Assembly (NCBI GenBank): GCA_019096065.1
Contig: JAGUCH010000005.1
Span: 248,001-312,000, forward strand
Direction of reading: 5' to 3'
Origin: Paracyclopina nana
Taxonomy: Eukaryota; Arthropoda; Copepoda; Cyclopoida; Cyclopettidae
DNA length: 64,000 bases
Shown here: in pieces, positions 4,175 to 26,584 of the stretch
How positions within the stretch are numbered: the stretch's first letter is position 1
Layout of the letters: each line of letters opens with the position of its first letter
The notes under the pieces: model-generated
Told to the model about the DNA's origin: nothing
The model's input: only the letters and a program-made list of their open reading frames with translations
Databases searched by the model: none
Translations under genes and position numbers: made by a program

Positions 4175-4180
4175 TATTAT

Positions 4181-4545
4181 AGCTTGTTCTCATAAAACTC
4201 AGTAAAGCAAGGCACTTTGGAAGCTCATAACTCAGTAAGTATTGAGCCGATTGGAACCAAATTTGGAGGGATTCATAAGAGCGTATTGAAGAATCTTCAT
4301 GCCAATTTTCATCCGGATCGGAGGTCTCTAAGGAGGTGGCTGATTTTTCTCCTTTGCTTAACTGATTTGCCTCACTTTCAGTAAGGCGGCCTTTGCGTCC
4401 TCCAATCCGGATGAAAATTGGCATGAAGATTCTTCAATACGCCCTTATGAATTCCTCCAAATTTGGTTCCAGTCGGAGGATTAGATGCTGAGATATAAGC
4501 GCGCAAAGTGCCTTGCTTACCTCATAGAAATGTTTATGAGAACAA
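4181..4545. mobile_element. MITE family M1, copy 1 (terminal inverted repeat AGCTTGTTCTCATAAA)
   Basis: This ~365-bp imperfect palindrome begins AGCTTGTTCTCATAAA and ends TTTATGAGAACAA. The internal halves are mutually inverted: GAAGATTCTTCAATACG mirrors CGTATTGAAGAATCTTC, and CCAAATTTGG occurs in both halves. It is homologous to 19018-19395 and 53422-53805. The 3' end appears truncated where it meets segment A. It has no coding capacity. Confidence 0.85.
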
Positions 4546-5831: not shown

Positions 5832-8800
5832 ATGATGAGAGAGGAAACCAGCAGCAAACTTTTGGTGGCCCGAAATCAAATTGAACTTTTGGAAGCTGAC
5901 CTTTGGACTTGGAGGGCCAAATGTAAAGAGTCTGGCAAAAAGATCCCCAAGAGGTTGGTCCAAGCCAGAGCCAAATGGGCTTTCCACAAACAAGGCATTC
6001 CAGAATTCAAGGTGATGACCAATAAAACTTTTTTATTCATTTTTTAAAGCTGAAGCAAATCATAGAAAGTCATTGATAAAATTATTTCATTTCAATGACA
6101 GAAAATTATTAAGTCACTTCAAAGAAAAAAAGCATTTAGGCAATTTAATAAAAAAACAAACATATTTTGTCACTTCAGTGAAAAAAGTATTCAGTCAATT
6201 CAATAAAAAACATATTTTGTCATTTCAGTAAAAACATTACTTATAGTCACTTCAATAAAGCAAATTATATTGTCATTTCAGTGAAAAAAATTTTTATCAC
6301 AAAAAAATAATTAGTCACCTCAATGAAAAAAAAAAGTATTTAGTCAATGCAATAAAAAACCATATTTTGTCTTTTCAATAAAACAAACTATTTTGTCATT
6401 TCAATAAAAAAATATTTTATATGATGGAAAGCAATTTTCGCATGTATAATTCAGTTTACCAATTCGTCTCAGTTCATATTACTACACATATATAAAAGCT
6501 CTGACGTTTAACTTTATCAAGTGACACACATTATAAAGTATTTTATAAGGTGTGTTGCTCTTCTGTTACAATGATATTAGCCCGGTTCCAACACGGGATA
6601 TCAGCATAGTGCAGTACTGTAAACCAGTTAAGTCAGGTCGAGCTGAGCGCGCGAGCCAGCTGTGACCTGACTATGCTAAAAAGTCAAGTTACGTCTCTTG
6701 ACTATGCTGATTTTCCTTGTTGGAACCGGGCTATAGTCCAAGAAGTAAATCCGATTGCAGAAAAAAGGAGAAAAAAGGCTCTACTGGGTAAAGGCACCAG
6801 GGGCAAAGGCATTATGATAAAAGGCTCCCTGATAAAAAGCACGCTGCTTAAAGGCATAGCGGGCAAAAGCAACACTGATAAAAGGCAACTTATCTAAAAT
6901 GGCACTAAAAGAAATGGTATCACAAAATTTGTCGATTTGTTAAAAATCTGACAGCAGAAATAGCATTCTAGAAAAAAGTTATAAAGAAAAGTTGTAGCCC
7001 TAGCAAAATGAAAATCACATGCAAAAATTCAGTTTATTTGGTTAACTGAAAACGGAGAAACATGGAAGTGTAATTAAAAAAAATGCCATGTATGGGGATC
7101 GAACCCTGAACGTCAGGATTAGGAATCCAGCGCTCTACTGACTGAGCCACTGAGAACAGTTAGAAATATTGCTGTTAGAATTCCTTTTTATTCTTCTTAT
7201 GAGCTGAGCTAAGCTTAGTAGAAGAGTAGAGTCTCTATCAGAGATACCAGACAAAACTTTATCTAACAGAACATTAAGCTCCAAAAAGTACCAAATTAAA
7301 AAAGCACAAATTTTTAATTATTGATTAACGCTTTCAACTACTCTTGCCCTACTGAGGGCCTCTCAACCCAAGCCTTCAAAGTAATGGATCAGATGCTAAG
7401 TCAAGATTGCATGGTCTGGTAACTTCATTAACATTTGAAAATTACTTTCCATCATATAAAATCGTATACAGTCTGTCCCGTAGATTTCTGTACACTTTGA
7501 AATCAAAAGTTTGTGTTAAAACTTCTGGAAATACTCGACACAATGGATACTGTTGGAAAGCTTGAAACTTAAGCCATCTTTTTTAGTTTTGAGATTTTTA
7601 AAAAGTATTAATTCAAATAGATTTAGACCTCAAAATTGATAGTTACTCCAAATTCACGCCCATTTTCACTGATTTTTTTGATGAAAAGTCACTTACACAA
7701 AAAAATTATTTATTCAATTTCACATAAAATTGGTTAAACATTTGATCTTCATAAACAAAAAATCCCAAAGATGTGATGTTTAAAACACTAATTTTGAAAC
7801 TTTTTTAGTAGGCAGTGGCCTTATTGTCTTTTTTTTTACTGAAAAATATCCTTTTGAATCATCCACCTTTCTGATGAGCCAGCACAGGCTGCAAGATTTT
7901 TTTTGATGAAAAAATGTCAAAAAAATAGCCAGGATTAGCTTAGCTGAAAATTTGGTCAATGATAGCCGATTTTGGCAAATTTGCTTTTTTGGGAGAAAAA
8001 TTAAGGGTACTTCAGGAAAATTAAGTTTTCTCATTTTTTTACTTTTAATTTCTTTTATCCATTGAAGCAAAAAAAGATGGCAAAAGATTCAAGCTTTCCA
8101 ATGATATCCATTGTGTCTAATATTTCCCGAATTTGTAACACAAACTTTTGATTTCAAAGTGTACAGAAATCTACGGGACAGACTGTATATATGTAAACTA
8201 ATTATAAAACAGGCTTACAAAATATCTGAGCTCATTTTGCAAAGTAAAAATCTCGTAGCATTACTTGGCTCTTGCAAGCTCGAGCCCGCAAAAATGCCAC
8301 TCGATTTTTACTTTACAAAATTTGCTCAGCGATTTTATTAGCTTGTTTTATAAATTGTTTACATATATAAATAGATATTTCAATTCAATTAAAAAGGAGG
8401 CAAGGCTACATTTTAAAAAGTTTTTTGGTTAGAAAGAAAAAGTCATTTTTTACAGCACGTCGAAATATTTTTTAAAAACTTAGACTAAGAAAATAAAAAT
8501 AGTATTTTAGATATAAAGAAGGGAAATTAAGCTAAAAGCTGACTTCACCCCTTCTTTTTTGGGCATTAAAAAGAGCAGCAAAAAAAAGGCATGCAATGAG
8601 CCATAAATGTAATTTGTTTTCCAGCTAACTAAAAGCCATTTTACCCACTCTTACCCACCTTTCACATGCAATTTTCCGGCGTGAAATATGCACTGTAAAC
8701 CATATATAGCAGAACATGGAAATGAAGAATTATTGCCTCGAGTACTGAGTAGCTTCCAGCTTCTGGTGGGGATTATATACTAGCATATAAAAATTTCTAA

Positions 8801-11800
8801 ATAAACACAGATTCACTTTTTGCTAATGGCAATTTCATGGCTGTTTGTCTCACACACTTTCAAATTGCTTTCCTCAGCCCATAAAATACAATGAAGCTAG
8901 TTTCGATGTGAGAAGAAACAGGAAATTGATAAAGGAGCTTTCTTCCACCATTCTTGGGTGATACCGTGCGCGCCCTAATTCAGAAACTTTTAAAAAAAGG
9001 ACTCGATTTTCAAAAAAATATTCTAAGACTTTTTTTTAAAGGATGCACATGACAAAATATGCTCCATAATTAACACAAAAATAGCTAAAATAGCAAAGGC
9101 ATAGAAGTGTTTTAAAAATACATGAAATACACAAAAATTTCAATTTTCAATTTGGGAACTTTAGTATATCACTGAAATTGAGCACATTTTGGCTAAAACA
9201 AAGTAAAAATAGTAAACTTAATACAACTCAATGACTAGCAATAGTCACTTAAAAATTTTATGGTATTTTCAAAAGTTCTGAATCAGGAGGGCGCACGGTA
9301 AAACTCTTGGTGACATTGTGTTGCAGCAAGGAATTTTCACCCTCACATCTGATTACTTTCAGGCATCTGATGGCTGGTATTGGAAGTGGTTGGCAAAGTG
9401 GAAAAAGAAAAGCTTAACAAATAATGACCAAAACATGCTGAGTAAGCATGCCATCAGGTTGTCCAACAGCATTTTTTGCCAATATCAAGCAGAAAACAAC
9501 CAATCAGCTCCAGAGGTACTTTCATTGCAAAACATGACATTTTTGGCTACAAGCAAAAAAGATGCAGCCCACCTCTTAACTATGAATACATAATTGGGGT
9601 ATATTTCAGTTAGAAGTTCGAGGTGGAAAGGAACTGTGGTATTTGAGTGGTGAAGCAAATTTTTTATTTTTAAAAAGAGTAAAAAGAAGCAACATTTTTA
9701 AGAAAAAAAAAACTTTTATACAAATAAAAATACTTTTTCACAAAAAATACTTTTTTACGAAAAATCTTTTTTACAAAAAAAATACTTTTTTACGAAAAAA
9801 ATACTTTTTTACGAAAAAAATACTTTTTCACGAAATAAAAATACTTTTTTCACGAAAATAAAATACTTTTTTACGAAAAAAAACTTTTTTTTAAAAAAAA
9901 AACTTATACTTTTTTACAAAAAAGTACTTAAACTTTTTTACAAAAAAATATTTAAACTTTTTTTTTAAAAAAAATACTTAAACTTTTTTACAAAAAAATA
10001 CTTAAACTGTTTTACAAAAAAATACTTAAACTTTTTTACCAAAAAAATACTTTTTAAAAAAATACTCTTTTACAAAGAAATACTTTTAAAAAAAATACTC
10101 TTTTACAAAGAAATACTTTTTTTTTTACAAAGAAATACTTTTTTTTTTTACAAAGAAATACTTTTTTTTAAAAAAAAACACATTTTTTATGGAATAAAAC
10201 CAAATTTTTTGAAAAAAAACCCATTAATAATATTCATCCACTTAGTATTTATCTACTCTATAAACATGGTTAATTTTCAACGTACCATATTTTTTCTGGC
10301 TATAAACATATTAAAAGCATCTATGTTTAATTTGAAGGTGGCCAGTTTTCCTGGCTGAAAAGCAATACCACATAACCAAGATCCATTACTTTCCTAGGCT
10401 GAGCAATGCACAAGGGAAGAAGAAGTAATGCAAATGGAGGAAAATTTGGATGCTTCATCATCTCAAGATAAGATAATGGCTCAAATAGTTTCACCACCAT
10501 CATTCCAAGATCAACCACCACAACATCTTAATAATAGCCCAGAAGAGTCCATGGTAATGTGACCTCATTTCTCTCTACCAAAGTTAGGTTAATACACACA
10601 CACACAGCAGAAGTTGAGATCAATAAAATGCAAATTTCTTCTCAGCTCCCATTTTACTTTTCATAATGAGCTCTCACATTGCAGCAAGTGAAATAAGGCA
10701 ATTGAAAAACTGAACTGAGTTTAGACATTCAATTTTGTGTGAATCAGATTTTGGTTAAGGCCACTTTTAGGGGAATTGTTTGATAAGGCCAAAAGCACTG
10801 TGATAGTGGATGGGGACAACATTAATGTATTAGTAGCCATTAAGCTAGTTAGACAGTCTAAAAGTGTACAGAGGTATTCACTTTGCCTGGAAAGCATCCA
10901 TGCATTATTGTTTTAGCGAGAAAAAGCTCTTTTAAGCTTCTTTCACCTAACTGAGTTCAAGCTGGCCTTTTTCTGTGTGTCAATTTTTGGCAAGTACACA
11001 CAGTCACTTTTTTGAGAGAGAAAAACAAAGTTTACTCAGATAAAAATACACAGATAACTAAGAGTTAACTTAGTTTACTTAGAATAAGCAGAGTTTACTG
11101 AGTGTAAACAGAGTTTACTGAGTGTAAACAGAGTTTACTGAGAGTAAACAGAGTTTACTGAGAGTAAACATAGTTTACTGAGAGCATAAATTAGTTTACT
11201 GAGTTTTAACAGAGTAAACAGAGTTTACTGAGAGCAAACAGAGTTTACTGAGAGCAAACAGAGTTACTGAGAGCAAACAGAGTTTACTGAGAGCATAAAT
11301 TAGTTTACTGAGAGCATAACTTAGTTTACTGAGTTTTAACAGAATAAACAGAGTTTACTGAGAGTAAACAGAGTTTACTGAGAGTAAACAGAGTTTACTG
11401 AGAGCATAACTTAGTTTACTGAGAGCATAACTTAGTTTACTGAGAGCATAAATTAGTTTACTGAGAGCATAACTTAGTTTACTGAGTTTTAACAGAATAA
11501 ACAGAGTTTACTGAGAGTAAACAGAGTTTACTGAGAGTAAACAGAGTTTACTGAGAGCATAACTTAGTTTACTGAGAGCATAACTTAGTTTACTGAGTTT
11601 TAACAGAGTAAACAGAGTTTACTGAGAGCATAACTTAGTTTACTGAGAGCATAACTTAGTTTAGTGAGTTGACCGAGAATAAACAGAGTTTACCGAGAGT
11701 AAACAGAGTTTACCGAGAGTAAACAGAGTTTACCGAGAGTAAACAGAGTTTACTGAGTGTAAAACCAAGTTTTAACTAGGAGCAAAATGTATTTAAGAAA

Positions 11801-14800
11801 AAGTAACACATATTTGAATGAAAGTAAAACATAGTTTGCTCTGAAGAAAATTTTAAGCATATCATGAGCACAAAAATTGAACCAGCTTCAAGAATCTTAC
11901 TTTATAAAGCACATCTTAAGCAACCTTTCTGTAGCCCTCTAATTAGAGAAAACAAGTATGATTATCATATTGACTAGTATTTTACAAGTAGACCTCTTTA
12001 CTTAATATAATCAAGTCAGCAAAATGAGCAGCTCCAAAAATTTAAAAGTTAATTTGTCCTGCTTACCAAAATAGCTAGTATTGCTAACTAGGTGAATTTA
12101 TTTTAAAACTTGTTCTAGGTATCGAACAACATCCAATTTTGGTTGCCAGAAGAAGACAGTGAGGATGAGGGAGACCTTTTAAGCACTTTATCTTGTTCTC
12201 ATCTTTTGTCAGCTCAAGATATTTTGCCCTTGGTGATGAATGGAGGTGAAGTCAGCTTGGACCCAGTTCCCAGTGACTCCACTTTGCCAATCTCACCTAT
12301 CTTCATTTGCCCTGCTACTTCCACAGCCAATGAGACAGCTGCCTCAGATGAGCTAGATGATCCTGCAAAAAAGCAAGCCTTTCATGACCTCATTGGAGAG
12401 GATTTGGATGACATTTTGGCTGAGGTGACAACACCAGCCAAGGCAAACAGTAACATCAATGTGGTGGCCACTTTTGAGCTTCCAGATGTCAAAGACCACC
12501 AGTTTGATCATAAAGTTGATCAGCAGGTAATATTTATTTGTATCTTGGCATGGACAGCAGAACAGGGATGTAAAACAGATGAGAGAGGGCTGCACAGTGA
12601 AAAAACTGAAATGAAGTACGCTAAGCCCAGTTTGCAATCATTAATATTAACTAGGGTTTTAAAAGCACTATTTAAAATATATTTTGGAGCCAATTATTAT
12701 AATTGTTACATAACTGGCTTTTATTTAGTTTAAAAGAGTTGCGACACTTGATGAACAATTTTGTTTGTTTTCATGATATTTTGGAGTGTCGTGAAGTTTT
12801 CAGAGGGATGGAACAAATATACATATCCTTTGAGCAACACAAAGTTGTAAACATCTATGAAATAATCAAACTGAGGAATGATTGGAAAATTAAATAAACA
12901 CACTGAATGACAAGCTGTAACAAAGAAAAGGCTCGACAAACAAATATAACCAGTGTACAGCATTGCTCCATTGATGTCATTTGCAGATTTTAGCCACCAG
13001 GAAAAGTGGTGGAAAGGCAAACTTGCTTTTATTGGAGTTGACTTTACATTTATGATCTTCCTGCTTGGTTTTGTTTGCTTTGGAGAGATCTCAGGTGTGT
13101 GTGTGTGTGCAAAACTGACAAGGTCTAATGGGAAAGCCTAGGAAAGGAGAAAAAAAGACCATGAGGAAAATAGGTCAAGACTTCCTTTGCTCAATTTGAA
13201 AGACACATCCAACAAGTTGAATTACATTTTTGAAATTACACAATTCAATTTGAGAACAGCCTTTAATCAAGGCTCTTGGAAAGTCAAACATGGACAGTTT
13301 GGAAAGTTGCATCGAGCATAACCCCCCAAAAAGGAAGGAATGGATATTTGGCTCTTTTTATGGATTGTTGAATACTAAGAGCTTTAGAAAGCACAATGCT
13401 GCTGTCTCCCCACTTCTTTGCAGCCATTCACAATGTCACAAGAGCCAACCATCATATTGTGATATTGGCAAAGCCATCAAATAGAGCTCTCAGAAGCCCC
13501 ATTGTGCATTTGATGATAGAATCAGGCCTAATAAATTTGGTGCACTACTCAAATCTGGCCAGGATTCACTTTAACATAGAGGTTAACTATCTTCATAGGA
13601 ATTGGTGACAACTGGTGACTTGGCTTGGACCTCTCCTTCACCTTCTTCAGTGTGCAGCCAATTGAGTTTTAAGGAGAACTTTGAGCCAGACAATACTAAT
13701 GAAGAAGTGAAGCAAGAAGAGCAGGCTCCAGGCTCCAGTGCAGCCAGGAAAAAGTTGACAGTTATTGCCAGGCACAGGAGGCTAGGTGAAGAATCACTAA
13801 GTAGGCTTAAAGAGGAAGTGAGAAGATATGCCCTGGATCACACTTTTAAAGAGACAGCCAAAAAGTTTGGCATTCACCACTCCACAGTGTCTGGCTGGGT
13901 CAAAGCCAGGGAAAAGGTGGCCCAAAACAGCCTTAGACTCCTCAAAAACAATTCAGGTATGTTCACTACAGTCTGAACCTTGATTGATATGCTTTCGACA
14001 AATTTAGAAATAAAGTAAGCAAACACTTAATTCAAATTGCAAATCATCCAAGCCAAGTTGCTAATGAGCCAAAGTAAACAGCAGCCTTGTTTGAAGTGGT
14101 TCAATAAAAATCAGTGTGCTTAGAACAGCATATTCATCCAACTTTTCTAAATTAAAAGTTTTCAAAGCACATAACTTCACAAGGGAGGAAACTTATTTGG
14201 CAACCAAGTTATTGTGCCAACCTTGTGAAATACTATCTGAAAATCTCCAGCTTCTCTCTCAGCTCTTTGTCTGCAAACTTTTCGCCTAAATAAGGCCAGA
14301 TTAGAGAATCCAATAAAATCATAGCTGAGCTGGCCTCAGAACATTCTGAGTGAAAGCAGGCACACAAACCTAGCAGAAAGTAATCAATGGAATGGCAAAT
14401 TCCCAGAAAAAAAGCCATCAGTTTTTCATTCTCACTGATACCTTAAAATATATGTCTAAGCAGAGACATTATCTTCAATAGCTATAAGAAAATTTTTAGT
14501 GGCATTTCATCTCTCAAAGCAATTTGAATGCTGAATCAAAAATTACTACATTATCATCAAAGATTGTTGAGAGGAAGCTATTGATGCCAAAGTAAGGAAT
14601 CTATGGCATCTTAGCCTGAAAAAATGATATCTTGAACATTTTTTGCAGCCAAACAAAAAAGTTTGCCATTATTGCTAAGCAAGCATGAGTAAAGTAAGTT
14701 TGCTTTCCTTTTTTTCTGATCCTCTAAGGAGAGCCAACAAGTTCTCTTTGGACTGACAAGCAAAAACTCTCACTTTCTTCATAGCAGCAGAAAAACACTA

Positions 14801-17800
14801 GAATCTGTGAAGCTAAGACATTCTCTGTCTAATTAGAAGAGTTGCTTTTGATTCAGGGGCACTGAAAAAACAGGGGAAAAGGGACCCTTTGAACCTTCTT
14901 GTTGCAACAAAGCCATTAATGACAAAGCACTACTCACAATGACATTTTTCAGGCTTCTTTGAAGGATTTGCTGGAGCCACTTCCACAGAAGAAGAAGCAT
15001 CAGCTGCTGCTGTTGCTGAAAAAGCAGATGAAGTGTTTATCTCTTGGCTCAAATCAAACAGAGAATCTGGCATCTCTGTGACTTTGCCAAAGGTCAAAGA
15101 CAAAGTGGCTCAACTCTTTCTCACCTTTGGAACTTCCACCATTGAAAAGACTTGCAAATGGTTCTTGCTCTGGAACAACAGGTAAGCTGAAAATTTTTTT
15201 TTCTAGACCTCTTGAAAAAAATCAAGCTGCTCTAAGTCCTCTTGACAATATTTTGAAAAAACATTGGGCTGCAATTTGGAAAACATGAAGATAAGAAGCC
15301 TAGGCAAAGCTCTTCATTTTGAGCCCCTGGGGAAATCCTATTGTTACATCCTGGCCAAAATTTGCACTACTAGGTACAAGAAGAAGAACAACAACAATAA
15401 TAATAGTAGACATGGAGTGAGGCTCAGAAGAGTAATTGTAGAAAGAAGTGGCCCAACACAGTTATCTCTCTGGAGATGTCATTTGACATGCATATTGCAT
15501 GAAGAAGAAGAAGAACCACACAAAGACCTGTCAAGCACTAAGCCAACACAATCTACATACTTCACAAGGAAAATGTTGTTGTTGTAGCTGCTGCTGCTGT
15601 GGTTTGGCTGAGAGGGGAAAACCAAAATCAACATTTGCTACTTAAAAAAAAATTGCCAAAATACTTTTTACTTCACCCAAGCAGAAAATTGGGTTTGGAT
15701 GAAAGACAATTTTTTCCCATAAGACTTTTTTTAAGTTTCTGAGCTTTGAAATGAGCTGATTTAAAAAAGAAAAGTGCAGGAGATATATACAGGGATAAGA
15801 TAGTGACAAATAAATGGAGCCCTTTTTCTCCCTGTTATTTACTTAATGCTTGCCAGGCTGAAGAGTGGATGTGTGGGTTGGTGGTAGGAGAAACAACCAT
15901 TATTTGAAGCTGGTGTAGTTAAGTTTAGCACTTGAGAAAACATCAACTTGATTGCAGATTGAATGGAGAGCTATCAAGGCTAGTGTGAGAATAGCAAGGA
16001 GTTTTACTGAGAAAAAGAAGGGAAGCAAAAAAGACGATACTTTCCCCTAGTTGGCAACAAGTTTTTCTTATTACCAACTTGCACCAGTTTTCAAGCATTG
16101 AGTAAGCATATTGTGTCACCTGCATGATTCATTAGCTTTTAGTAGGTAGTAGTAACCAAATTATGTACCACTGCCAGAGTGCATTATAGTAAATTTATTG
16201 ATTGGAGCCTTGTTTCCCCTCCTGAAATTCATGTTTAAAAGACTAATCGCTTAAAGAAGCATATACTAGTTGAAAGCCTCAAGGCTGTAGGCCTTTTGTA
16301 GGTTTTGCATATTGTAAGATAGCTGTAAATCAAAGTCTTTTTAAGGCTCGAACAAAAGAAAGGTCCAAATGTATGCATAATGGACAGACACAGTTCAGTG
16401 ATTAAATCCATAATGGAGCACAATTAGGGCCAAAGTTGGGAGAGCCTAGAAAAAAGGTTCAAGATCTTTTTTGGGTTTAACTCCTCAGTGAAATTGCTGG
16501 CAAGTTTAGTCATGTCAGCTCTTGGCCTTAACATAATAAAGAATGGCCCAAAATCTCTGTAGGACCTGAGGCTTCTTCCTTTTGCAAGTTGATAATAGAG
16601 AGTGCAAAAATGCCAATGCACTTTGCTGGCTGCTGCTTCTCTGGGATCAACCAGCCAGAAAGGCAAGCTTAACAGACAGGTAGGTCTACATTTGTACAGA
16701 AATTGCTTTCAAAACACTAGCAGAGCTGGCCAAGGCTGAAAATCAAATACCAAGGGGTCTTATCTATACTTTTAACCTGAAATGAAACCATACTAATTAT
16801 TTTTTGCTTGGAGAACATGCTTTTTTTAGCTCTTGATTGAGTTTGCAGGTTTTTTTCCAGTTTTTAGGTTCTTTTTACTCTTTATAGAGGAGAGCTGGGA
16901 TTTTGGGAGCAACCTCAAGAAGGACTACAACAAGCTTTTAGATGCATAAATCTCTCTTCTTCTTCCATGAGTTCACAGTTGTCTGACCTGGAAGCAGCAG
17001 CAGCAGAAAAAAACTTTTTCTTTTGCATAATGGCCTCAAGTTTGGTTAGAAGGTGGACCTCAATTTAAGAAAGCATATGGAATGATCTTAAGACCCCAAA
17101 AAACTTCAACCTTCTTTTTGTATTTGGAAGCAAAAATAATATCTTATTTAGCTGCCTTGTGGGCAGAAAGAAGTAGTAGCAAGCCTTTTAAAGCGAAAAC
17201 AAGAAGCCATTAGCATCAAATCCTACCCTTAGCCCTCCTTGAGCTAACCAAAAACAAATGCACATTCTGCAGCCTAGATTACACAACAAATAAATGAATA
17301 TCAAGGACTCCACAAGATAAGCCCTCTTGCTGGTGAGATAAAAGCTACACATTGAGGTTACAATGCCTGCCTGAAAGTAGAAATTTGCATTATCAACTCA
17401 AGTTTAAAGCAATACCTGTCTTCTTTGAGACTTATTTAAAGATAATTAAGTCATCTTCTCTGATCTTAAATTTTTTTTCTTCATTAAGAGTATTTTTTCT
17501 GCCAAGTCAATTTTCAATCCATTTGGAGTCTTGAAACCTATTTTTAAGTAGTACCTTATTGAGGCTTTTGGCATTTGGAGCTATTTCTTGTCAAATATTT
17601 TTTTTCTGTGTCCTAAAGGGTTACAATCAATATCCTTTGTGGCTTTTTACATCATCTCACACAAATCCTTGACCTGAAAGGGAGATAGGCTGGCATGGCC
17701 CAAAGTTGAAAGTATCTCTGAGCCCCCAGAGATAACTTGTGAGCCATAAAGATGTGAAGCACTTGAAATTGATTCCTCTCCTATGGAAAATAAAGAGGCT

Positions 17801-20800
17801 GCCATTTTATGTGAGCCAATCAGAGCCATGTCAGTTTTATGCCCCTCCATTTTATGAGTTAGTAGCATGGATGTGATAAGCTTACCTTGCTGAAGATAAC
17901 AAATGATGCTCCCCCTTTTTACAGGGATTAAAGACACTGAAGGATTAAAGACTCCTCTCACTCCTATAGGAAAATGAATCAAGCTTTCTAATGAATATTT
18001 TAGAAAGCCATCTCACCTTGGAAAAAAATAGCCTTTCTCAGATGGCAATTAAGGCATTTCAAAATGAGATCAGCTTACAAAATCAGTTAAGCATTATATT
18101 TAAAGAGTTTCAAACATTGTCCTAACTCAACATGATTCAGAATTCTGTATTAGGAAAACGCACTAATTAGAAAGCATTTGTTTCAAATGAGTGTTATTTT
18201 CTACTTTAACTTTGAAAATGTTTTTTTAAAATTACCTTCCAAAAATAAGGTTGAAACATCTAAAATTAAGCTTTTCTTTGAAAAAATCATCATTAACTGT
18301 TTTGTAGGAAACTTAAAATATGATCAAAAAGGCTTTTGCAGGCAAGTTTGAAGGAAATACATTTTTGGTATTTTAGGCATGTAACCGTGGTAGTAAAAGG
18401 TGCACCTGTTGTCTTTTCACTTTCATAGTCCCTAGGGAAATGTCAAGGGAAGAAAAAGGGGCTGAAGTTCTGAGAAAAAAGTTGCTGTTTGAGCTGTAGA
18501 CAACAACAATTGATCCAAGTAAAGGAAGAAGAGGAAATTAGCATACACAAAAATGACCACCACTTTTTTTACAACTCTTATTTTCCCCAAGAAAGATGAT
18601 GATGTAATAATTATGTGAGCCCGCAGGAAAAGTGGAGATAAATTGACCAGCATGACATCATTATTGCACTGTAACAAATTGTTACCCAAGCCCAGAAATT
18701 CAGTCCAGGGAGAATTTATTGATTTTCTCCTCCTCCAAATGATCTTAATTTGAGAAAGGCTTACCTAGAAAAAAAGCAATGGAGCCCTTATGGAATAAAT
18801 TCATGGAATAAGATACCCTTAACATTAAGAAAACAATGCCTCTTTCTCAAAAAAAAAAAACCAATCCTAATTCCCTAATTCTGACAAAAAGGCCTCATTC
18901 AAACAAAAACTTACCCCCAATGCCTCATTCATGCAAAAAGGCAACTTGCTTTCAAAAACATACCCCCGATGCCTCATTGTCACAGAAAGGCATCTTTCTA
19001 ACAAAAACTTACCCATAAGCTTGTTATCATAAACATTTCTATAAGGTAAGCAAGGCACATATCTCAGCATCTACTCGTCTGATTGGAACCAAATTTGGAT
19101 GAATTCATAAGGACGTATTGAAGAATCTTCATGCCAATTTTCATCCGGATTGGAGGACGTTGAGGCCGCCTTACTGAAAGTGAGGCAAATCAGAAAAGCA
19201 AAGGAAAAAAATCAGCCACCTCCTTAGAGTTCTCCGATCCAGGTGAAAATTGGCATGAAGATAAGATTCTTCAATATGCTCTTATAAATCCCTCCAAATT
19301 TGGTTCCAATCGGCTCAATACTTACTAAGCTATGAGCTTCCAAAGTGCCTTGCTTTGCTTACCGCCTGCCTTACTGAGTTTTATGAGAACAAGCTATAAT
19401 CCCTCATCCTGACAAAAATGCCTCTTTTTCACAAACACATACCCCCAATGCCTCATTGTCATAGAAAGGCCTCTTCCTCACAAAAACAAGCCCATAATCC
19501 CTCATTATGACAAAAAGGCCTCTTTCTAACAAAAACCCAATGCCTCATTCATACAAAAAAGGTATCATTCTTTCAAAAACATACCCCCGATAACTCATTC
19601 TTTCAGAAAGGCCTCTTTCTAACAAAAACTTACCCATAATCCCTCATTCTGACAAAAAGGTCTCTTTCAAATGAAAACTTGCCCCCAATGCCTCATTCAT
19701 GCAAAAAGGCATCTTGCTTTCAAAAACATACCCCCCATGCCTCATACTTACAGAAAGGACTCTTCTTAACAAAAACATGCCCATAATCCCAGATTCTGAC
19801 AAAAACACCTCTTTCAAACGAAAACTTACCCTTGCCTCATTCATGCAAAAAGGCATCTTACTTTCAAAAACATGCCCCCCATGCCTCATTGTCATAGAAA
19901 GGGCTCTTCCTAGCAAAAACATGCCCATAATCCCTCATTCAGCCAAAAACGCCTCTTTTTCACAAACACATACCCCCAATGCCTCTTGTTGACAAAGGAG
20001 CCAACAAATAGTACATATTTTTGAGCTCTAAATTACTTGAAAGACAATTGTTTTTCAGGCGAGAAGAGAAGCAATATGTGGAGGGGATGGAGGATGAGGA
20101 GTTTTCCCGGCGGGAAACCCCCAATTTGGCCTACCCGCCCGCCTTCAAGCTGGAAGTGGCGCTGCACGCCAAAAAGTACAGCCAGTACGCGGCGGCCAAA
20201 ATTTTCAGCGTTGCCAGACGCCGGATCTTTGACTGGATGCGGCAAGTGCCCAAATTGCAGGATCTCATCGCCAAAGGACACATGAAGAAAATGACTGGGC
20301 GAGGCCCGAAAAACAGGGACATTGACCAAGCTCTTTTCGATTGGTACAGCCAAAGAAGAGCAGCGGGAGAAAGACCAAGATCATGCGAAGTAAGACTCCA
20401 CAGTGGATTATTTAGGCCGCATCCAAAAAAATATAAAACACTTGAATTTTTAAAAATGGTATTTTAAGTATATTTTCTAGGTTACTTTATTATGTGATTG
20501 CATGCGAGCAAAATTCATGAATATTCCACAGTGGATTTTTTCGGCCGCATCCAAAATAAATAAAAACCTGGAATTTTTAAAAATGGTGGGGATATTTTAA
20601 GTATATTTTCTAGGTTATTTTATTAAGTGATTGCATGCGAGTAAAATTCATGAAAATTCCACAGTGGATTATTTCGGCCGCATCAAGAAAAAACAACCGG
20701 AACTTTTAAATGGTGGGGTTATTTTAAGTATATTTTCTAGGTTACTTCATTAAATGGTTGTATGCGAGTAAAATTCATGAAAATTCCACAGTGGATTATT

Positions 20801-23800
20801 CAAGAATGTGGTTCGCTTACTTTAATATTTAGCAAAAGTTGGGCGAAATTTCCACAGTGGATTATCATTTGAAATTCTAACATTTCGCATTTATCCCATC
20901 AGCCACAGTGGATTATTGAACAGCTTAAGGCCCGCGTTAAAAAATGAGGGCACATTGAAAATGAGGGCCCATTGGAAAATTTAATCAGAATTTTTTTAAT
21001 AATAATTTTGTCAATTCGACTGGATTCAAAAATGAGGCTAAATAATCCACAGTGGTTCATCAAAGAGGATATTTTTAATTTTTAAATTCAAGGCAAAAGT
21101 GCAGTTTTTTACACTAAAAAAGTGTATTTATATGAATTATAGACGATAAGAGGGAAGCTCAAGGAGAAACCATTTACCATTGTTGCGGCATGAAAGATAG
21201 CAATTTTCCATTGTGGATGTGAGAGTTTTTGGCTTTTCTGGACGTTGCGCGGAAAAAATGATCTTCCATCTTTCAATTGTGGCACAAAAAGGAGAAACTA
21301 CTATTAATACTAGAAATACTATTTAACTAGGAAATGGAAAAAGTGCCCCAAATTATCCATTTTCCAGAATTTCATAAAACCAAAAATTCATGAAAAAAAG
21401 GGAAATATCTGACTTTTGCTAATAAATAACTAGGTGTTCAAGTGCGGAAATAATTGGAAAAAGTCTCTGATAATTTGAGCAGGCGTCTAAAATAACATTA
21501 AAACCTTTTGAAATTAGGACTCTCCTATAAAATGAACGTCTTAGCTTATAATAACAGCTGGGCGTCCGAGGCGGCGCTCCACGCACCTCGCCGCCTAGGA
21601 TGATTCGAGCGAGCGCGTACAACAGCCAAACAGTCCATAAAACCTCTAAAAATTGCCTCAAACTCAAGCAGAAAACCACCCATAACACTTAACAAATAAA
21701 AGCAAGTAGATTTACATGAAAATCTCTTCAATATGCTTCGCCGCCTCCGCGGGTCTGGTCGCTCCGCTCTCTTCACAACAATGATTAGAACGCTGTGGTT
21801 TTTCAGGTTCAATCGAGGGCTCGGGAGATTTACTGCGCTCGAGGCTACACCGATATGAAATGCTCCTACGGTTGGTTCAAAAGGTGGTCACAAAGGTTCC
21901 ACATTCAGCTGAGATACTCGTATGATGATGAGCTTTTGGAGTGGATCTTGGCCAAATTCGATGCCAACGCGCCGGTCAACCACCATGACTTGCAAAATCA
22001 CGGCCTGAGTCTGGTCAGAAAGGAAGATCCCCACTTCAAGGCTTCATCTGGTTGGGCACTAAGGTATTGCTTATTTTCTGGTGGGGAATTTTGAAAAGCA
22101 GCTGAGTACTGAATTGACAAGCAGGAAAACCTCTCTAAATTCAGATACTCAGTGATATAGATGCAATAAAAACAAGGGGCGATTTTTATTCTAGACAACT
22201 ATGGTTTTTTTGTTAGACAAAAATTGGTACAAACATGACCCTTGGGACTACAAGGAATACAATTCTAGACTTGTAATATCTGGACAAGAGCCAGTAAAAT
22301 GTGCCTTTGTACTTTTGTACTTTCTGCTATAAGAGTCATTTTCTAGTCCCCAGTCTGCAAAAATAATTGTTTAATAAAGTCGCTGACCCGGAAAAAGTAA
22401 AAGTCACTTAGTAGGAAAGTCACATTTTAAAAAAAATACATATGGTCCCACTACAATTGATCTTTAATATCTATAATAATAGCTTTCTTAGAAATTAAGT
22501 GTCTAAAGCGATAAAAAGTGAAAGTAACTTTATTTGATAAATAACTGTCGAGGAAAGTCACTTAAAGTTAACCACTACATTGTTTAGGAAATATACTTGT
22601 AGAAACGTCCTTCAATTGAAATATCACTCACTTGGTAAGTCAGCATCTAGGATTATCAAGAAGACAGAAAAGTCACTGTGTTTGAAAGTCACTGGCAGTG
22701 AAAGTCACAGACTTGGAAAGCAGTTGTGTATTAAAGTCACAGAATGGGATAGGCAGTGTCTATATTAGTCACTGACTAGGAAAGTCGGTGTCTAAGAAAG
22801 TCACAAAATCCACTAAATAGGAAAGTCTTACCTCGTTGAAAGTCATTCTCAGCAAAAATCACTAACAGTGAAAGTCACGAACGGTGAAAGTCACGAACGG
22901 TGAAAGTCACGAACGGTGAAAGTCATGAACGGTGAAAGTCACTACACCACTTTATGTCACAAACCAGGAAATTCACCATAAATAAAAGTCAAAATCAAGT
23001 ATAGGGATTATCTATGACTCTCTCTCTACTAAAGTCATTGTCAATGAGATCCAATGCCAAAGAAAGTCACTGTCAAGAAAAGTCACTGCCTATGAAAGTC
23101 ATTGCCTATGAAAGTCACTATCTATGAAATTCACTGTCCATGAAAGTCATTATCCATGAAAGTCTTTTCTTATAAAAGTTACTGACTATGAAAGTCACTG
23201 ACTAGGAAAATAGCTGTCTAAGATCCTCACTTTCTAGAAAAGCCTATAATAGCCTATGTAAGTCAGCAAAAATAACTTTCTTTGACAAGTCACTGCCAAT
23301 TTCATTAAGTCAAGGAAAGGCATATTCTAATAATAAAGTCACATTTGATGAAAGTCACTATCGGTGAATATCACCTTCAATGAAAGTCACTATTTATGAA
23401 AGTCACCTTCAATGAAAGTCACTATCAGCAAAAATCACTATCTATGAAAGTCAATATAAGCAAAAATCACAATCCATGAAAGTCACTATCCATGAATAAC
23501 ACTATCTATGAAAAAAAGTCACTATTGATGAAAGTCACTATTGATGAAAGTCACTATTGATGAAAGTCACTATCGATGAAAGTCACTATTGATGAAAGTC
23601 ACCATCAACAAAAGTCACTATTGATGAAAGTCACTATCAGAGAAAAGTCACTATTGATGAAAGTAACTATTGATGAAAGTCACCATTCAACAAAAGTCAC
23701 TATTGATGAAAGTCACCATCTGTGAAAGTCACTATCAGAGAAAATCACCATTGATGAAAGTCACAGTCAATGAAAATGACTTAAAGTCACTTTTTGTGAC

Positions 23801-26584
23801 CAAGAATTTTGCACTTTAGGTTTTGCAAGCGACACGTGGACTACCTAAGCCCCGAGTTGTCGGGTGGGGCACGATTGCCCGAGCATTTGGAGGATCGAGG
23901 CAACCGGTTCAAGTTGGTGTTGCAACAGCTCATAAAAGACCGCTGCTTGAGCGCAGGTCAAATTGGATGCATGGACCAGCTAGCCTTACACTTAAGCCCC
24001 TCTTTGAGGGACAAACGAACTGCACCAATTCTGCTCAAGCACCAAGGACTTAAGGGGGCTCAAGCAATTGTCATTTTGGCCACAACCGCAAATGGAAAAC
24101 TTTTGCCACCTTTTCTCATTCTACAGGTAAAAATCTGGACTCTAACCAACGCTTTCAAATCCTTCGCTCAACTGAATTCTGGATTTTAAAAAACTGCGCT
24201 CAACTGAATTCTGGATTTTAAAAACTGCGCTCAATTACGTTATGCCTTTTAAATATACATTCCCTATTCACAAATCCTTTGCTTAATTCAAAAATCTGCT
24301 TTCAAATCCTTTGCTCAATGAATTCTGGATTTTAAAAAAACTGCGCTCAACTGAATTCTGGACTTTAATAAACTGGGCTCAATTATATTATGCCTTTTTA
24401 AAAGACATTTAGCTTATTTCGCTGATTTGAATTTCCTATTGACAAATCATTTGCTTAATTTAAAAATCTTGCTTTCAAAATCCTTCGCTCATTTGAGTTG
24501 GGAATCTTTTAAAAGCTTCGCTCTTAACCGTTCCAGAATCAAAAGAAAAAAAAATATCATTGTATTGTTAAAATATTTTGCTAAACCAACACTGGTTAGG
24601 AGACAGTTGCTTAGATCAATTATGAACTCACTAACATTCATTTCAAAATAACGAATTCCGGATTCTAGAGTCTTCGCTCAAAACGTTGCAACCAAATGCG
24701 AATTCCGGTCTTTTCAAAGCTTTCACTCGACTCGAATCACATCTGTTAATTCCGGACCAATTGTTTCATTTAATTTGCTCACTTAACATTCGTTGAGAGG
24801 CAAATCCGGATTTCGGTAACCCTGTGAAATCCGGATTCAAAACTAAGCTTTTCTTTGGCAAAAACATAAATGGAAAGAAATGCAGATTACAATTAATGGC
24901 CCCGCCAAATCAAAAACCTTGAAACTCACTCAAAAGTGAGCGAAGCAATAATCGTTTAGCACTGAGCGAAGCGAAAACTTTCCAAATCTCTCATTCTTCG
25001 CTCACTCAAAACTCTCCGAAATCCAGCTTGAAAACCTGAAGCACACTTTCATAAACATTTGCTCTTTTCAGCTATGAGCGCAGCACAAACTTCCGTTACT
25101 TGCTTCTAAAGTGAGCGAAGCGATAACCGTTTTTAAAGCAATAAGCGAAGCGAAAACACTCGCCAAATTTCTGCTCTTCGCTCACTCTAAATTCTCCGAA
25201 ATCCAGCTTGAAAACCTGAAGCACACACTTTAATGAACCTTCGCTTTTGAGCGCCATACAAAGATCCTAGGCTCTAAAGTGAGCGAAGCGAAAACTCGCC
25301 AAATCTCTATTCTTCGCTCACTCTTAATTCTCAGAAACCCAGCTTGAAAACCTAAAGCACACTTTGATAAACCTTCGCTCTTGTCTGAGTGAGCGCAGCA
25401 CAAACATCAGTAACTTACTTCTAAAGTGAGCGAAGCGAAAACTCGCCAAATCTCTATTCTTCGCTCACTCTATATTCTCCGAAATCCAGCTTGAAAACCT
25501 GAAGCACACTCTCATAAAATTCTTGTCTGCTATGAGCGCAAACATCCGTTACTCGCTTCAAAAGTGAGCGAAGCGCGACTTTGAAATTTTTCAAAAAATG
25601 TCGTTTTTTGCAGAGCGAAGCGAAGAACAATTTGCTCCACTTACCTGACGGCGAAGTCATCATTGCCTTGCTGAATGGCGACCCCAATTCGTGTTTGAAT
25701 GAGCGAACAATCGGCCAATGGCTGAATTTGGTCTGGTTCGCTCACGTGCCGCAGTGCAGCCTTTTGCTCGCGGATTCCTTCGCTCCTCACACGGCTTCGC
25801 TCACGCAGAAAACGCTCGTTAACCGCGGAGCTTGCCTTGCCATCATTCCATCAGCTTGCTCACAAAAACTCCAGCCTTTACACCGCGGAATTATGCACAA
25901 ATTCAAGGTGATTTTTTTCCGAATATTTCCGATCAAAATTGAATTTCGCAGTTTTCGCTCACATTCGCCGAAAAACTCGCGAGTCGCGGCGCTACCAGAG
26001 GATTTCGAAAGTCGCCAAATCCCTCCTGTTTTGGCCGAAAATGAATATTTTTGGCTGGATGTGGCCATAAAAAGGGGCAGAATTATTTTTGGGTTTGATG
26101 AGCGCAAAATTCCAATTAAACTAGAGACTGAAGCAAAAAAATTGAACTTGAACGCGAAGCTTTAAAAAATGACTTGAGTTGATTTTCAGTGAAAATTCGC
26201 AACGTGCAAAAAATGGCAAAAAAGTACTAAGAGTTTTTTCATATTTTTTGTTTTAGTTCACTTTTTTGTGGGGCAGACTCTATATTTGCTTTTTCCCGCC
26301 TTTTGCAGGAATTTGTGGAATGCATGTACCTGAAAAGTTTGGAGATGTGCTCTGATGCCAAACCAGGCAATTTGGACATTGCTAATTGGGTGGATCAGGC
26401 CTACAAATCACTCAAAAATCAGCAGGTATCTCACTTTTGGGGCGAACCGAACGCCCGCCCCCCACAACAAAAAAAGGGAATTGATTCAATCAAAAAATGC
26501 ACATTTGTTTTCAATTTCCAGGATGAGATCGAAGCAAGCTTTGTTGACACTGGAATCCTCCCTAAATCCAACTACCAGCATTAA
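5832..26584 (+). CDS. POGK/pogo-class transposase-derived protein with multiple DNA-binding modules and a degenerate DDE domain
   Basis: Twelve exons with matching phases encode about 950 residues: 5832-6011, 9363-9515, 10398-10553, 12119-12526, 13599-13956, 14953-15181, 20059-20389, 21807-22063, 23820-24126, 25614-25907, 26309-26425, 26522-26584. Order: CENP-B-type HTH (~15-75), acidic linker (~112-345), psq/Brinker-like HTH (~355-405), CENP-B-type HTH (~443-500), Brinker-like HTH (~518-566), CENP-B-type HTH (~583-640), CENP-B-type HTH (~645-700), DDE domain (~735-945). POGK-type proteins normally have one Brinker-like HTH, one CENP-B HTH and one DDE. D743 (MDQ) and D847 (LLADS) align with the first two catalytic Asp; the third (family LQPLD) is H883 (LQPLH). 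Inference: a nuclear DNA-binding protein without transposase activity. Start chosen at ATG 5832, after an in-frame TGA at 5823. Splicing is unverified. Confidence 0.8.
6050..6414. repeat. Short tandem-like array, GTCATTTCAATAAAA
   Basis: Imperfect units of about 30-50 bp repeat GTCA(C/T)TTCA(A/G)TAAAA through intron 1, starting shortly after the exon 1 donor. No coding content. Confidence 0.7.
6580..6731. mobile_element. 152-bp MITE, TIR GCCCGGTTCCAACA, TA target duplication
   Basis: Terminal repeats GCCCGGTTCCAACA and TGTTGGAACCGGGC are flanked on both sides by TA. Internal arms (CAGCATAGT... and ...ACTATGCTG) also pair. It is nested inside the 6415-7461 element. Confidence 0.8.
7083..7160 (-). 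other. Degenerate tRNA-like sequence (Arg CCT-like anticodon) with pol III boxes
   Basis: Read on the minus strand, TGGCTCAGTCAGTAGAGC matches an A box and D-arm, GGTTCGATCCC is a consensus B box, the anticodon loop is TTCCTAA (CCT), and a T-run follows the 3' end like a pol III terminator. The acceptor arms do not pair and the T-stem is partial, so it is a tRNA-derived cassette rather than a functional tRNA. Confidence 0.6.
7469..8185. mobile_element. Tc1/mariner-like non-autonomous element, ~717 bp
   Basis: A near-perfect ~50-bp terminal inverted repeat begins CAGTCTGTCCCGTAGATTTC, with weaker pairing for another ~60 bp. It is flanked by TA on both sides. The CAG start and TA duplication are typical of Tc1/mariner/pogo elements. 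The 96-codon internal minus-strand frame (7780-8070) is not a recognisable transposase. Confidence 0.85.
8188..8368. mobile_element. ~180-bp hairpin element abutting the Tc1-like element
   Basis: The arms TATATATGTAAAC..ATTATAAAACA and TGTTTTATAAATTGTTTACA are inverted. The inner arms AGTAAAAATCTCG and CGATTTTTACTTT also pair. No coding capacity. Confidence 0.7.
8964..9298. mobile_element. 335-bp MITE, TIR CCGTGCGCGCCC, TA target duplication
   Basis: The left end CCGTGCGCGCCCTAATTCAG pairs with the right end CTGAATCAGGAGGGCGCACGG (one small gap). TA flanks both ends. It ends about 65 bp upstream of exon 2 of the pogo-like gene. Confidence 0.8.
9645..10200. repeat. Low-complexity array, AAAATACTTTTTTAC
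   Basis: Simple A/T-rich repeat of AAAAATACTTTTTTACG-like units within intron 2. Open frames across it are low-complexity artefacts. Confidence 0.85.
10398..12526 (+). other. Exons 3-4: acidic low-complexity linker of the pogo-like protein
   Basis: Exon 3 (10398-10553) encodes AEQCTREEEVMQMEENLD and a Gln/Pro/Ser-rich tail. Exon 4 (12119-12526) encodes an acidic Ser/Asp/Glu-rich stretch (PEEDSEDEGD, SDELDDP, EDLDDILAEV). No domain recognised; it could be an activation or interaction region. Both joints are phase 0 with good GT/AG sites. Confidence 0.65.
11036..11770. repeat. ~20-bp tandem array, CAGAGTTTACTGAGAGTAAA
   Basis: About 35 imperfect units in intron 3, with variants AGCATAACTTAGTTTACTG and GAGTTTACCGAG forming higher-order blocks. 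It is confined to this intron within the window. Confidence 0.9.
12527..12960. repeat. Interspersed intronic element, copy 2
   Basis: Starts at the exon 4 donor and matches the dynein intron 135-518: CAGATGAGAGAGGGCTG, GTGAAAAAACT, then GTTGTAAACATCT and AATAATCAAACTGA. Divergence is substantial. Confidence 0.5.
13599..15181 (+). other. Exons 5-6: psq/Brinker-like HTH followed by a second CENP-B-type HTH
   Basis: Exon 5 (13599-13956) contains LKEEVRRYALDHTFKETAKK then FGIHHSTVSGWVKAREK, a clear helix-turn-helix of psq/Brinker type. Exon 6 (14953-15181, phase 1 in, phase 2 out) encodes VFISWLKSNRESGISVTLPK..VKDKVAQLFL..CKWFLLWNNR, which follows the pattern of a CENP-B/Tc5-type HTH. The first residues of exon 7 complete it. 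A Ser/Glu/Ala-rich linker lies between them. Confidence 0.65.
15182..18830. other. Intron 6 of the pogo-like gene, 5' part
   Basis: No exon or clear repeat recognised in this 3.6-kb stretch. Short open frames here have no conserved motif. It is mixed A/T-rich DNA with small triplet runs (AAGAAGAAC, GCTGCTGCTG near 15380-15600). Confidence 0.4.
18840..19990. repeat. ~55-60-bp tandem array, CCTCATTCTGACAAAAAGGC
   Basis: Units of CCTCATTC(TG)ACA(G)AAAAGGC..TCTTTCTAACAAAAAC(T)TACCC(C)(C)AATG repeat across the 3' part of intron 6. The array is interrupted by a MITE at 19018-19395. Both strands give repeat-derived open frames. Confidence 0.85.
19018..19395. mobile_element. MITE family M1, copy 2, with readable empty site
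   Basis: Begins AGCTTGTTATCATAAAC and ends TTTATGAGAACAAGCT; internal halves inverted as in 4181-4545. It is flanked by ATA on both sides (19015-19017, 19396-19398). The uninterrupted tandem unit at about 19628-19640 reads ACCCATAATCCC, which is the pre-insertion sequence. Confidence 0.9.
20059..22063 (+). other. Exons 7-8: Brinker-like HTH, third CENP-B-type HTH, start of fourth
   Basis: Exon 7 (20059-20389): YPPAFKLEVALHAKKYSQYA..AKIFSVARRRIFDWMRQ resembles the Brinker DNA-binding domain found in POGK-like proteins, then RGPKNRDIDQALFDWYSQRR opens a CENP-B-type HTH completed in exon 8 (21807-22063) by YGWFKRWSQRFHI. Exon 8 continues with YDDELLEWILAKFD..DPHFKASSGWALR, the fourth CENP-B-type module. 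GC content is visibly higher than in the introns. Confidence 0.75.
20390..20960. repeat. ~130-bp repeat with CCACAGTGGATTATT motif
   Basis: Intron 7 begins with CCACAGTGGATTATT at 20398, eight bases after the donor, and repeats it near 20528, 20659, 20786, 20852 and 20903, with GGCCGCATC following the first three. The intervening sequence (TATTTTCTAGGTTACTTTAT, TTGCATGCGAG) is also repeated. Confidence 0.85.
22380..23795. repeat. 14-20-bp tandem array, GAAAGTCAC(TAT...)
   Basis: About 1.4 kb of intron 8 is built from (T)GAAAGTCAC with variable 4-8-bp spacers (TATCGATGAAAGTCAC, GAACGGTGAAAGTCAC). The array runs to within 35 bp of exon 9. Confidence 0.9.
23820..26584 (+). other. Exons 9-12: DDE domain with Asp-Asp-His, and C terminus
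   Basis: Exon 9 finishes the fourth CENP-B module (FCKRH) and carries GQIGCMDQLALHLSP (first Asp) and ANGKLLPPFLI (family motif GxKLPPxxI). Exon 10 has NERTIGQWLNLVW, then LLADSFAPH (second Asp) and KLQPLHRGIMHKFK, where His sits 36 residues after the second Asp at the site of the third Asp. Exons 11-12 encode the C-terminal helix region (YLKSL...ANWVDQAYKSLKNQQ, then IEASFVDTGI), matching the conserved SFxxxGI end of pogo relatives. The stop is at 26582-26584. Confidence 0.75.
24140..25600. repeat. Intron 9 repeats: CTCAACTGAATTCTGG and GTGAGCGAAGCGAAAAC units
   Basis: The first part (24140-24400) repeats GCGCTCAACTGAATTCTGGA. The second (24890-25600) has four to five ~150-bp units containing AGTGAGCGAAGCGAAAAC, TTCTTCGCTCACTC, TCCGAAATCCAGCTTGAAAA and CTGAAGCACAC. 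The array runs up to and apparently into exon 10. Confidence 0.85.

Follow-up and report, generated by a model that had tools for sequence, protein, structure and literature searches.

We analyzed a window of 64,000 nucleotides from the copepod Paracyclopina nana (assembly GCA_019096065.1, contig JAGUCH010000005.1, positions 248,001 to 312,000), in which a gene of 12 exons lies on the forward strand between positions 5832 and 26584 (Table 1). All 11 introns have GT-AG boundaries and are in phase, the spliced frame is open across every junction from the start at 5832 to the stop codon at 26582-26584, and the product has 950 residues. It consists of a CENP-B helix-turn-helix (HTH) module, a psq-type HTH, a second CENP-B HTH, a Brinker-type HTH, two adjacent CENP-B HTHs, and a DDE domain, in that order. 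An initial annotation of the same sequence had proposed these gene ends, the 12 phase-consistent exons and the order of modules; the splice sites and open frame bear out the gene model, and Pfam profiles together with orthologues bear out the order.

Table 1. Features of the window. Positions are in nucleotides of the window, or in residues of the 950-residue product where marked aa; module bounds were set by the analyst.
Feature	Position	Strand	Content and basis
Exon 1	5832..6011	+	CENP-B HTH 1, first part (5883-6011); P0001 match
Exon 2	9363..9515	+	CENP-B HTH 1, recognition-helix part (9363-9407); P0001 match
Exon 3	10398..10553	+	Linker; from splice sites and phase alone, without homology support
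Exon 4	12119..12526	+	Acidic linker with DILPL...LPISPIFI motif; P0001 match
Exon 5	13599..13956	+	psq-type HTH (13764-13937); P0001 match
Exon 6	14953..15181	+	CENP-B HTH 2 (15021-15181, completed by 20059-20068); P0001 match
Exon 7	20059..20389	+	Brinker-type HTH (20129-20278), CENP-B HTH 3 first part (20315-20389); P0001 match
Exon 8	21807..22063	+	CENP-B HTH 3 remainder (to 21914), most of CENP-B HTH 4 (21915-22063); P0001 match
Exon 9	23820..24126	+	CENP-B HTH 4 end (to 23856), DDE start, first catalytic D (23974-23976); P0001 match
Exon 10	25614..25907	+	DDE; second D (25773-25775), His at third position (25881-25883); P0001 match
Exon 11	26309..26425	+	DDE end; P0001 match and alignment
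Exon 12	26522..26584	+	C-terminus and stop codon; from copepod-side alignment only
CENP-B HTH 1	aa 18-75
Acidic linker	aa 76-354		Net charge -35
psq-type HTH	aa 355-412
CENP-B HTH 2	aa 442-498
Brinker-type HTH	aa 519-568
CENP-B HTH 3 and 4, back to back	aa 581-641, 642-703
DDE domain	aa 736-931
Dynein heavy chain C-terminal exons	510-2513	+	Upstream of the gene
Partly palindromic repeat, ~370 bases	4176-4545 and 19021-19400		Inverted copies, one within intron 6
Frame with signal-like start	27700-28305	-	FRFFGG/FRFYGG motifs; perhaps a neuropeptide precursor
DEG/ENaC-type sodium channel exons	31196-33548 and 39091-39687	-	Downstream; probably two genes
Open frames of a repeated unit (VRRASERCGAHADGA-like)	33672-34262	both	Probably a tandem repeat read as protein

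Relatives of the protein occur in both copepods and insects. Among the seven proteins that the first search returned, one has a name: LOC131883631 of Tigriopus californicus, at 41% over 97% of residues 340-950. With a profile, the search reached the Mormon cricket, Anabrus simplex, at 34% with 99% of the core covered. A search from Anabrus reached Cryptotermes, Zootermopsis, two Timema, Periplaneta, Blattella and Apolygus, whose proteins are named uncharacterized, hypothetical or HTH CENPB-type domain-containing. We refer to alignment rows that group with Tigriopus, or stand nearer to it by identity (P0005, P0008, P0009, P0011, P0012), as copepod-side, and to rows that group with the named insects as insect-side, P0022 being loosely placed. 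The initial annotation had suggested looking for orthologues in related genomes, and relatives on both sides carry the same module order, which in insects is seen in the Mormon cricket, termites and stick insects.

The evidence that the locus holds a single gene comes from P0001, one frame of 1129 residues on a contig of 4,229 bases. A search of the entire 92-Mb genome with P0001, in which 13 candidates were scored, gave 11 matches. Ten of them fell in this locus, all on the + strand and collinear, from 5871 to 26485 and covering P0001 residues 7-1119; the eleventh is a weak match (E 0.0057) to a second pogo-type gene, L001, on C2. Exons 3 and 12 had no match in this search, and stop codons appear in two of the ten matches because these overrun the ends of exons that are themselves open. 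Since the gene has 11 introns yet the P0001 frame is unbroken on a 4.2-kb contig, P0001 is most simply a spliced transcript. Because its matches fall here in ten places, in order and spanning both halves, the locus is, on this sequence evidence, one gene. Tandem repeat arrays, mostly with a different unit per array, lie in introns 1, 2, 3, 6, 7, 8 and 9 (for example at 9695-10221, 11057-11763, 19398-19996, 20397-20800, 23062-23775 and 24929-25509) and occupy very roughly half of introns 2, 3, 8 and 9.

The same data bear on whether two adjacent genes have been misjoined, exons 1-6 then encoding an N-terminal HTH protein and exons 7-12 a POGK-like protein that begins at the Met of VEGMEDEE. Intron 6 is the longest, at 4.9 kb, and that Met in exon 7 is a plausible start, but Tigriopus P0006 and the insect-side P0010, P0016, P0017, P0019 and P0020 each carry the modules in this order within one protein, and copepod-side sequences hardly vary where exon 6 meets exon 7 (CKWFLLWNNRREEK.YVEGMED). 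A division of transcripts between exons 1-6 and 7-12, which the initial annotation had named as the observation that could undo its model, is not what P0001 displays, its open reading frame running through exons of both halves. We reject the two-gene reading, which is refuted in the relatives and hardly credible for P. nana.

Pfam profiles on the spliced protein detect HTH_Tnp_Tc5 (hereafter Tc5; E 1.2e-24, three stretches), BrkDBD (E 5.6e-7, two stretches) and DDE_1 (E 5.1e-7), which upholds the transposase origin proposed at the outset. The psq module matches HTH_23 at 24.8 bits (cut-off 24.6), while CENP-B_N stays below its cut-off of 21.2, at 14.0 bits on the full protein and 18.9 bits on a piece. 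In the P. nana sequence, CENP-B 1 alone scores 18.3 bits, below the 22.2-bit Tc5 cut-off, and CENP-B 2 alone has no Pfam match. The relatives are more informative on these two modules. The P0007 frame stops within CENP-B 3, and the sole Tc5 stretch reported for it is CENP-B 1, at 30.6 bits; in P0014 it is CENP-B 2, at 28.3 bits, again above the cut-off. With E up to 0.1 allowed, four of the eight proteins scanned (P0016, P0017, P0019, P0020) have four Tc5 stretches and the other four have three, the scan printing the position of the best stretch only. The longest copepod-side proteins with all modules (P0001-P0004, P0006) have three stretches each at E up to 1, the undetected one presumably being CENP-B 2. 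Two marginal alignments are to 1hlv, the human CENP-B domain bound to DNA: one of the second half of psq together with CENP-B 2, in a profile built from seven copepod-side proteins (E 0.011), and one of CENP-B 1 of the insect-side P0019 (E 0.031). Judged from the relatives, the weak modules CENP-B 1 and CENP-B 2 are real, and the protein is not one in which profile searches find merely one CENP-B and one Brinker module, the other outcome that would have told against the initial annotation. The exon 4 linker motif is kept in six of the seven copepod-side rows that reach it, Tigriopus being the exception, and is present in the fragment P0015; it is possibly a short interaction motif.

To date the array, we compared modules between copepods and insects by mean identity, pairing each of six copepod-side rows with each of eight insect-side rows (48 pairs) and leaving out P0021, P0023 and P0024, which were also in the alignment. 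The values are 0.53 for CENP-B 1, 0.35 for psq, 0.32 for CENP-B 2, 0.43 for Brinker, and 0.42 for both CENP-B 3 and CENP-B 4, with the linker at 0.13 and the DDE domain at 0.29, lower than any of the six HTHs. A tree was built from 45 CENP-B modules, to which 11 of the 17 proteins contributed four each and L001 one; in it, CENP-B 2, 3 and 4 each form one group containing both copepod-side and insect-side proteins (100/99, 96/89 and 98/97). Because these modules group by position and not by species, the tree places the six-HTH array before the copepod-insect split, with no homogenisation of its members since. The repeated-module array that the initial annotation described is real, but it was not made in this species. 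Equal intron places among the CENP-B modules, a sign of exon duplication, were searched for by eye and none was found.

The DDE domain has fared differently on the two sides. The third catalytic residue is lost in all 11 copepod-side sequences that reach the position (DDH/DDL), and for this reason the copepod protein probably cannot cut DNA. The third Asp is intact in eight of nine insect-side sequences (Apolygus is the exception), and 35 residues separate the second and third positions in 14 of the 15 rows reaching the third. We regard it as improbable that in insects the protein has kept its nuclease activity for a programmed role: its DDD triad and spacing are as such an enzyme would have them, but the third Asp is gone from Apolygus and the entire copepod side, and the DDE domain is the least conserved of the modules. 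The fold itself is kept, as judged from the predicted core structure and structure comparison. The core protein was folded with 23 alignment rows in place of the whole Tigriopus protein, whose AlphaFold model (7 rows) had a mean predicted local distance difference test (pLDDT) score of 41.9, too poor for use. Foldseek ranks 1hlv 19th (E 0.027), outside the 50 structural-comparison rows; rows for full-length Mos1 have a root-mean-square deviation near 18 and no common domain arrangement, and most matches in a viral fold library were distant ones to transposases and integrases. Searching PDB sequences directly with the exon 9 stretch gave no match.

A host gene is the best reading of the locus, because the DDE_1 profile finds one place in the genome and the family tree resembles that of the hosts. 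(The BrkDBD profile finds none at E up to 0.001, the Brinker exon scoring only 22.0 bits.) In this tree of 17 rows, P. nana groups with Tigriopus at 100/100, the copepod-side rows are set apart, and cockroaches and termites fall together with stick insects and Anabrus next, a pattern that fits vertical inheritance with sequence constraint within the taxa sampled. A mobile pogo-like element, or a recent remnant of one, could explain the kept DDE fold, the intact insect triad and the patchy taxonomic matches, but it accords poorly with a gene of 11 introns for which the candidates scored across 92 Mb gave one locus, with a third catalytic residue that the copepod-side sequences have lost, and with the tree. 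Nor does any inverted pair of at least 24 nt flank the gene within 3000-30000, shorter terminal inverted repeats not having been searched for; two inverted pairs of 24 and 26 nt (77-83%) begin inside exon 1 and end beyond the gene. For this locus we reject the mobile element, which is very improbable, and the domestication proposed by the initial annotation stands on low copy number, introns, the lack of such flanking pairs, and the tree.

The spacing between modules, counted between anchor residues chosen by the analyst, suggests how the protein is built. CENP-B 2 and Brinker are 18-20 residues apart in 14 of 17 rows, CENP-B 3 and CENP-B 4 are 6 apart in 16 of 17, and CENP-B 4 and the first D are 42 apart in 15 of the 16 rows extending to that D, whereas psq lies anywhere from 102 to 854 residues after CENP-B 1. 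The tether of CENP-B 1 is acidic in most rows, with a net charge of 0 in Apolygus. We infer from this near-fixed versus variable spacing that CENP-B 2-Brinker and CENP-B 3-4-DDE make up a rigid core, that psq is attached more loosely, and that CENP-B 1 sits on a long tether.

We consider it fairly probable that the gene is a domesticated Passer/POGK-type pogo transposase that is now a sequence-specific DNA-binding protein, its array reading a long or multipartite site. In the course we propose, a transposase of this type, with Brinker-type and CENP-B HTHs and a DD35D-type catalytic domain, would have been domesticated anciently into a single-locus host gene; its DNA-binding part would have expanded to six HTH modules prior to the copepod-insect split, and the array would have been retained since. 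The protein would most likely act as a sequence-specific chromatin or transcription factor, in which the tethered CENP-B 1 plus psq, CENP-B 2, Brinker and CENP-B 3-4 could read a long or multipartite site: the core would sit on one composite site while CENP-B 1 grips a second, with the DDE fold retained as a body or assembly surface. That each module binds DNA, that the array reads a composite site and that the protein has a regulatory role are inferences, as are the bridging of several sites and the silencing that the initial annotation had envisaged. A more far-reaching version seems to us doubtful, though arguable: a six-HTH architectural protein present throughout the Pancrustacea, which would read a long composite site or clamp several together (e.g. 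in satellite or heterochromatin DNA), arising from a domestication separate from and much older than that of vertebrate CENP-B, catalytic-capable in insects and cutting-dead in copepods.

Several observations weigh against a DNA-reading regulator inherited as we propose. The net charge of CENP-B 4 is -4 to +2, and that of CENP-B 2 is -2 to +5 (ten proteins), so that both may be structural; given the low charge of CENP-B 4, not every module need bind DNA. With the third Asp intact in most insect-side sequences, catalysis may persist there. The taxonomic spread of the matches is patchy: flies, beetles, bees and Daphnia are missing from those listed, limited candidates having been scored. In the family tree, Apolygus P0025 and P0022 are long, unresolved branches. 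The module tree is short (61 columns) and carries long-branch warnings; CENP-B 1 is not one group, because the Apolygus copy falls outside, and L001, an unrelated gene, joins CENP-B 4 at 99/93. Because of these last two features, the tree does not establish internal duplication of all four modules. The charges and the near-fixed spacings, which suggest rigid blocks, would also suit a protein that is mainly an assembly scaffold, several HTHs having exchanged DNA binding for protein contacts and only one or two (e.g. CENP-B 1 and Brinker plus CENP-B 3) still reading DNA. We think this unlikely: net charge is a crude guide, every module is conserved between copepods and insects at 0.32-0.53, and the CENP-B 4 motif KAS.GW..RFCKRH is kept in most rows.

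L001 (C2:16339445-16342609, - strand) was the only other pogo-type gene to turn up among the best candidates scored. Its open frame of 309 residues resembles the six-HTH gene in having a psq/Brk-like HTH and a Tc5 HTH but has one of each, and what is listed for it at E up to 0.1 includes neither another HTH nor a DDE domain. A weak CENP-B_N match on C7 lies in an open frame that looks coiled-coil by eye. Within the window, the ~370-base repeat looks like a non-autonomous mobile element, and the frame at 27700-28305 has no Pfam match at E up to 0.01.

The gene is probably an old DNA-binding regulator, still unstudied, and it is instructive to compare it with known systems. With CENP-B and the domesticated genes that combine CENP-B_N and Tc5 (TIGD, JRK) it shares a psq-type and CENP-B HTH pair and, on the copepod side, a degenerate triad, and with CENP-B itself the marginal alignment to 1hlv. 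It differs from CENP-B in its four CENP-B modules, in a psq-type module that fits HTH_23 or BrkDBD better than CENP-B_N, and in that no CENP-B dimerisation domain is among the Pfam families listed for the full protein. Drosophila Pipsqueak is likewise one regulator with tandem pogo-type HTH modules, but these are psq modules only, accompanied by a BTB domain, and the protein is not known to have a CENP-B HTH array or a DDE domain. By motif set and spacing the nearest known kinds appear to be the Passer transposases and POGK. According to the available part of PMC7386202, both have BrkDBD and HTH_Tnp_Tc5, POGK being DN35D; in P. nana and its orthologues these two motifs lie upstream of DDE_1, and most rows have the 35-residue spacing of the DD35D signature given for Passer in the available part of PMC8472432. 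Unlike them, the present protein has six HTH modules rather than two and H or L as third residue on the copepod side, and KRAB is not among the 10 Pfam families listed for it at E up to 10. POGZ is also Passer-derived and long, with a CENP-B HTH and a DD35D-type DDE domain, but has zinc fingers and one Tc5 motif (PMC7386202). The accessible portion of the openly licensed literature gave no account of a six-HTH architecture; its nearest mention is a cockroach transcript labelled pogk, with BrkDBD, DDE_1, HTH_Tnp_Tc5 and KRAB (PMC12752085). Each HTH module here is more conserved than the catalytic domain. The gene offers a natural test of how HTH arrays evolve and what a long composite reader is for, with insects and copepods as a natural pair in which the third catalytic residue was kept or lost. 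Against the one or two DNA-binding motifs in each of the 12 vertebrate pogo-derived genes tabulated in the available part of PMC7386202, the present protein has six modules, in an order common to copepods and insects.
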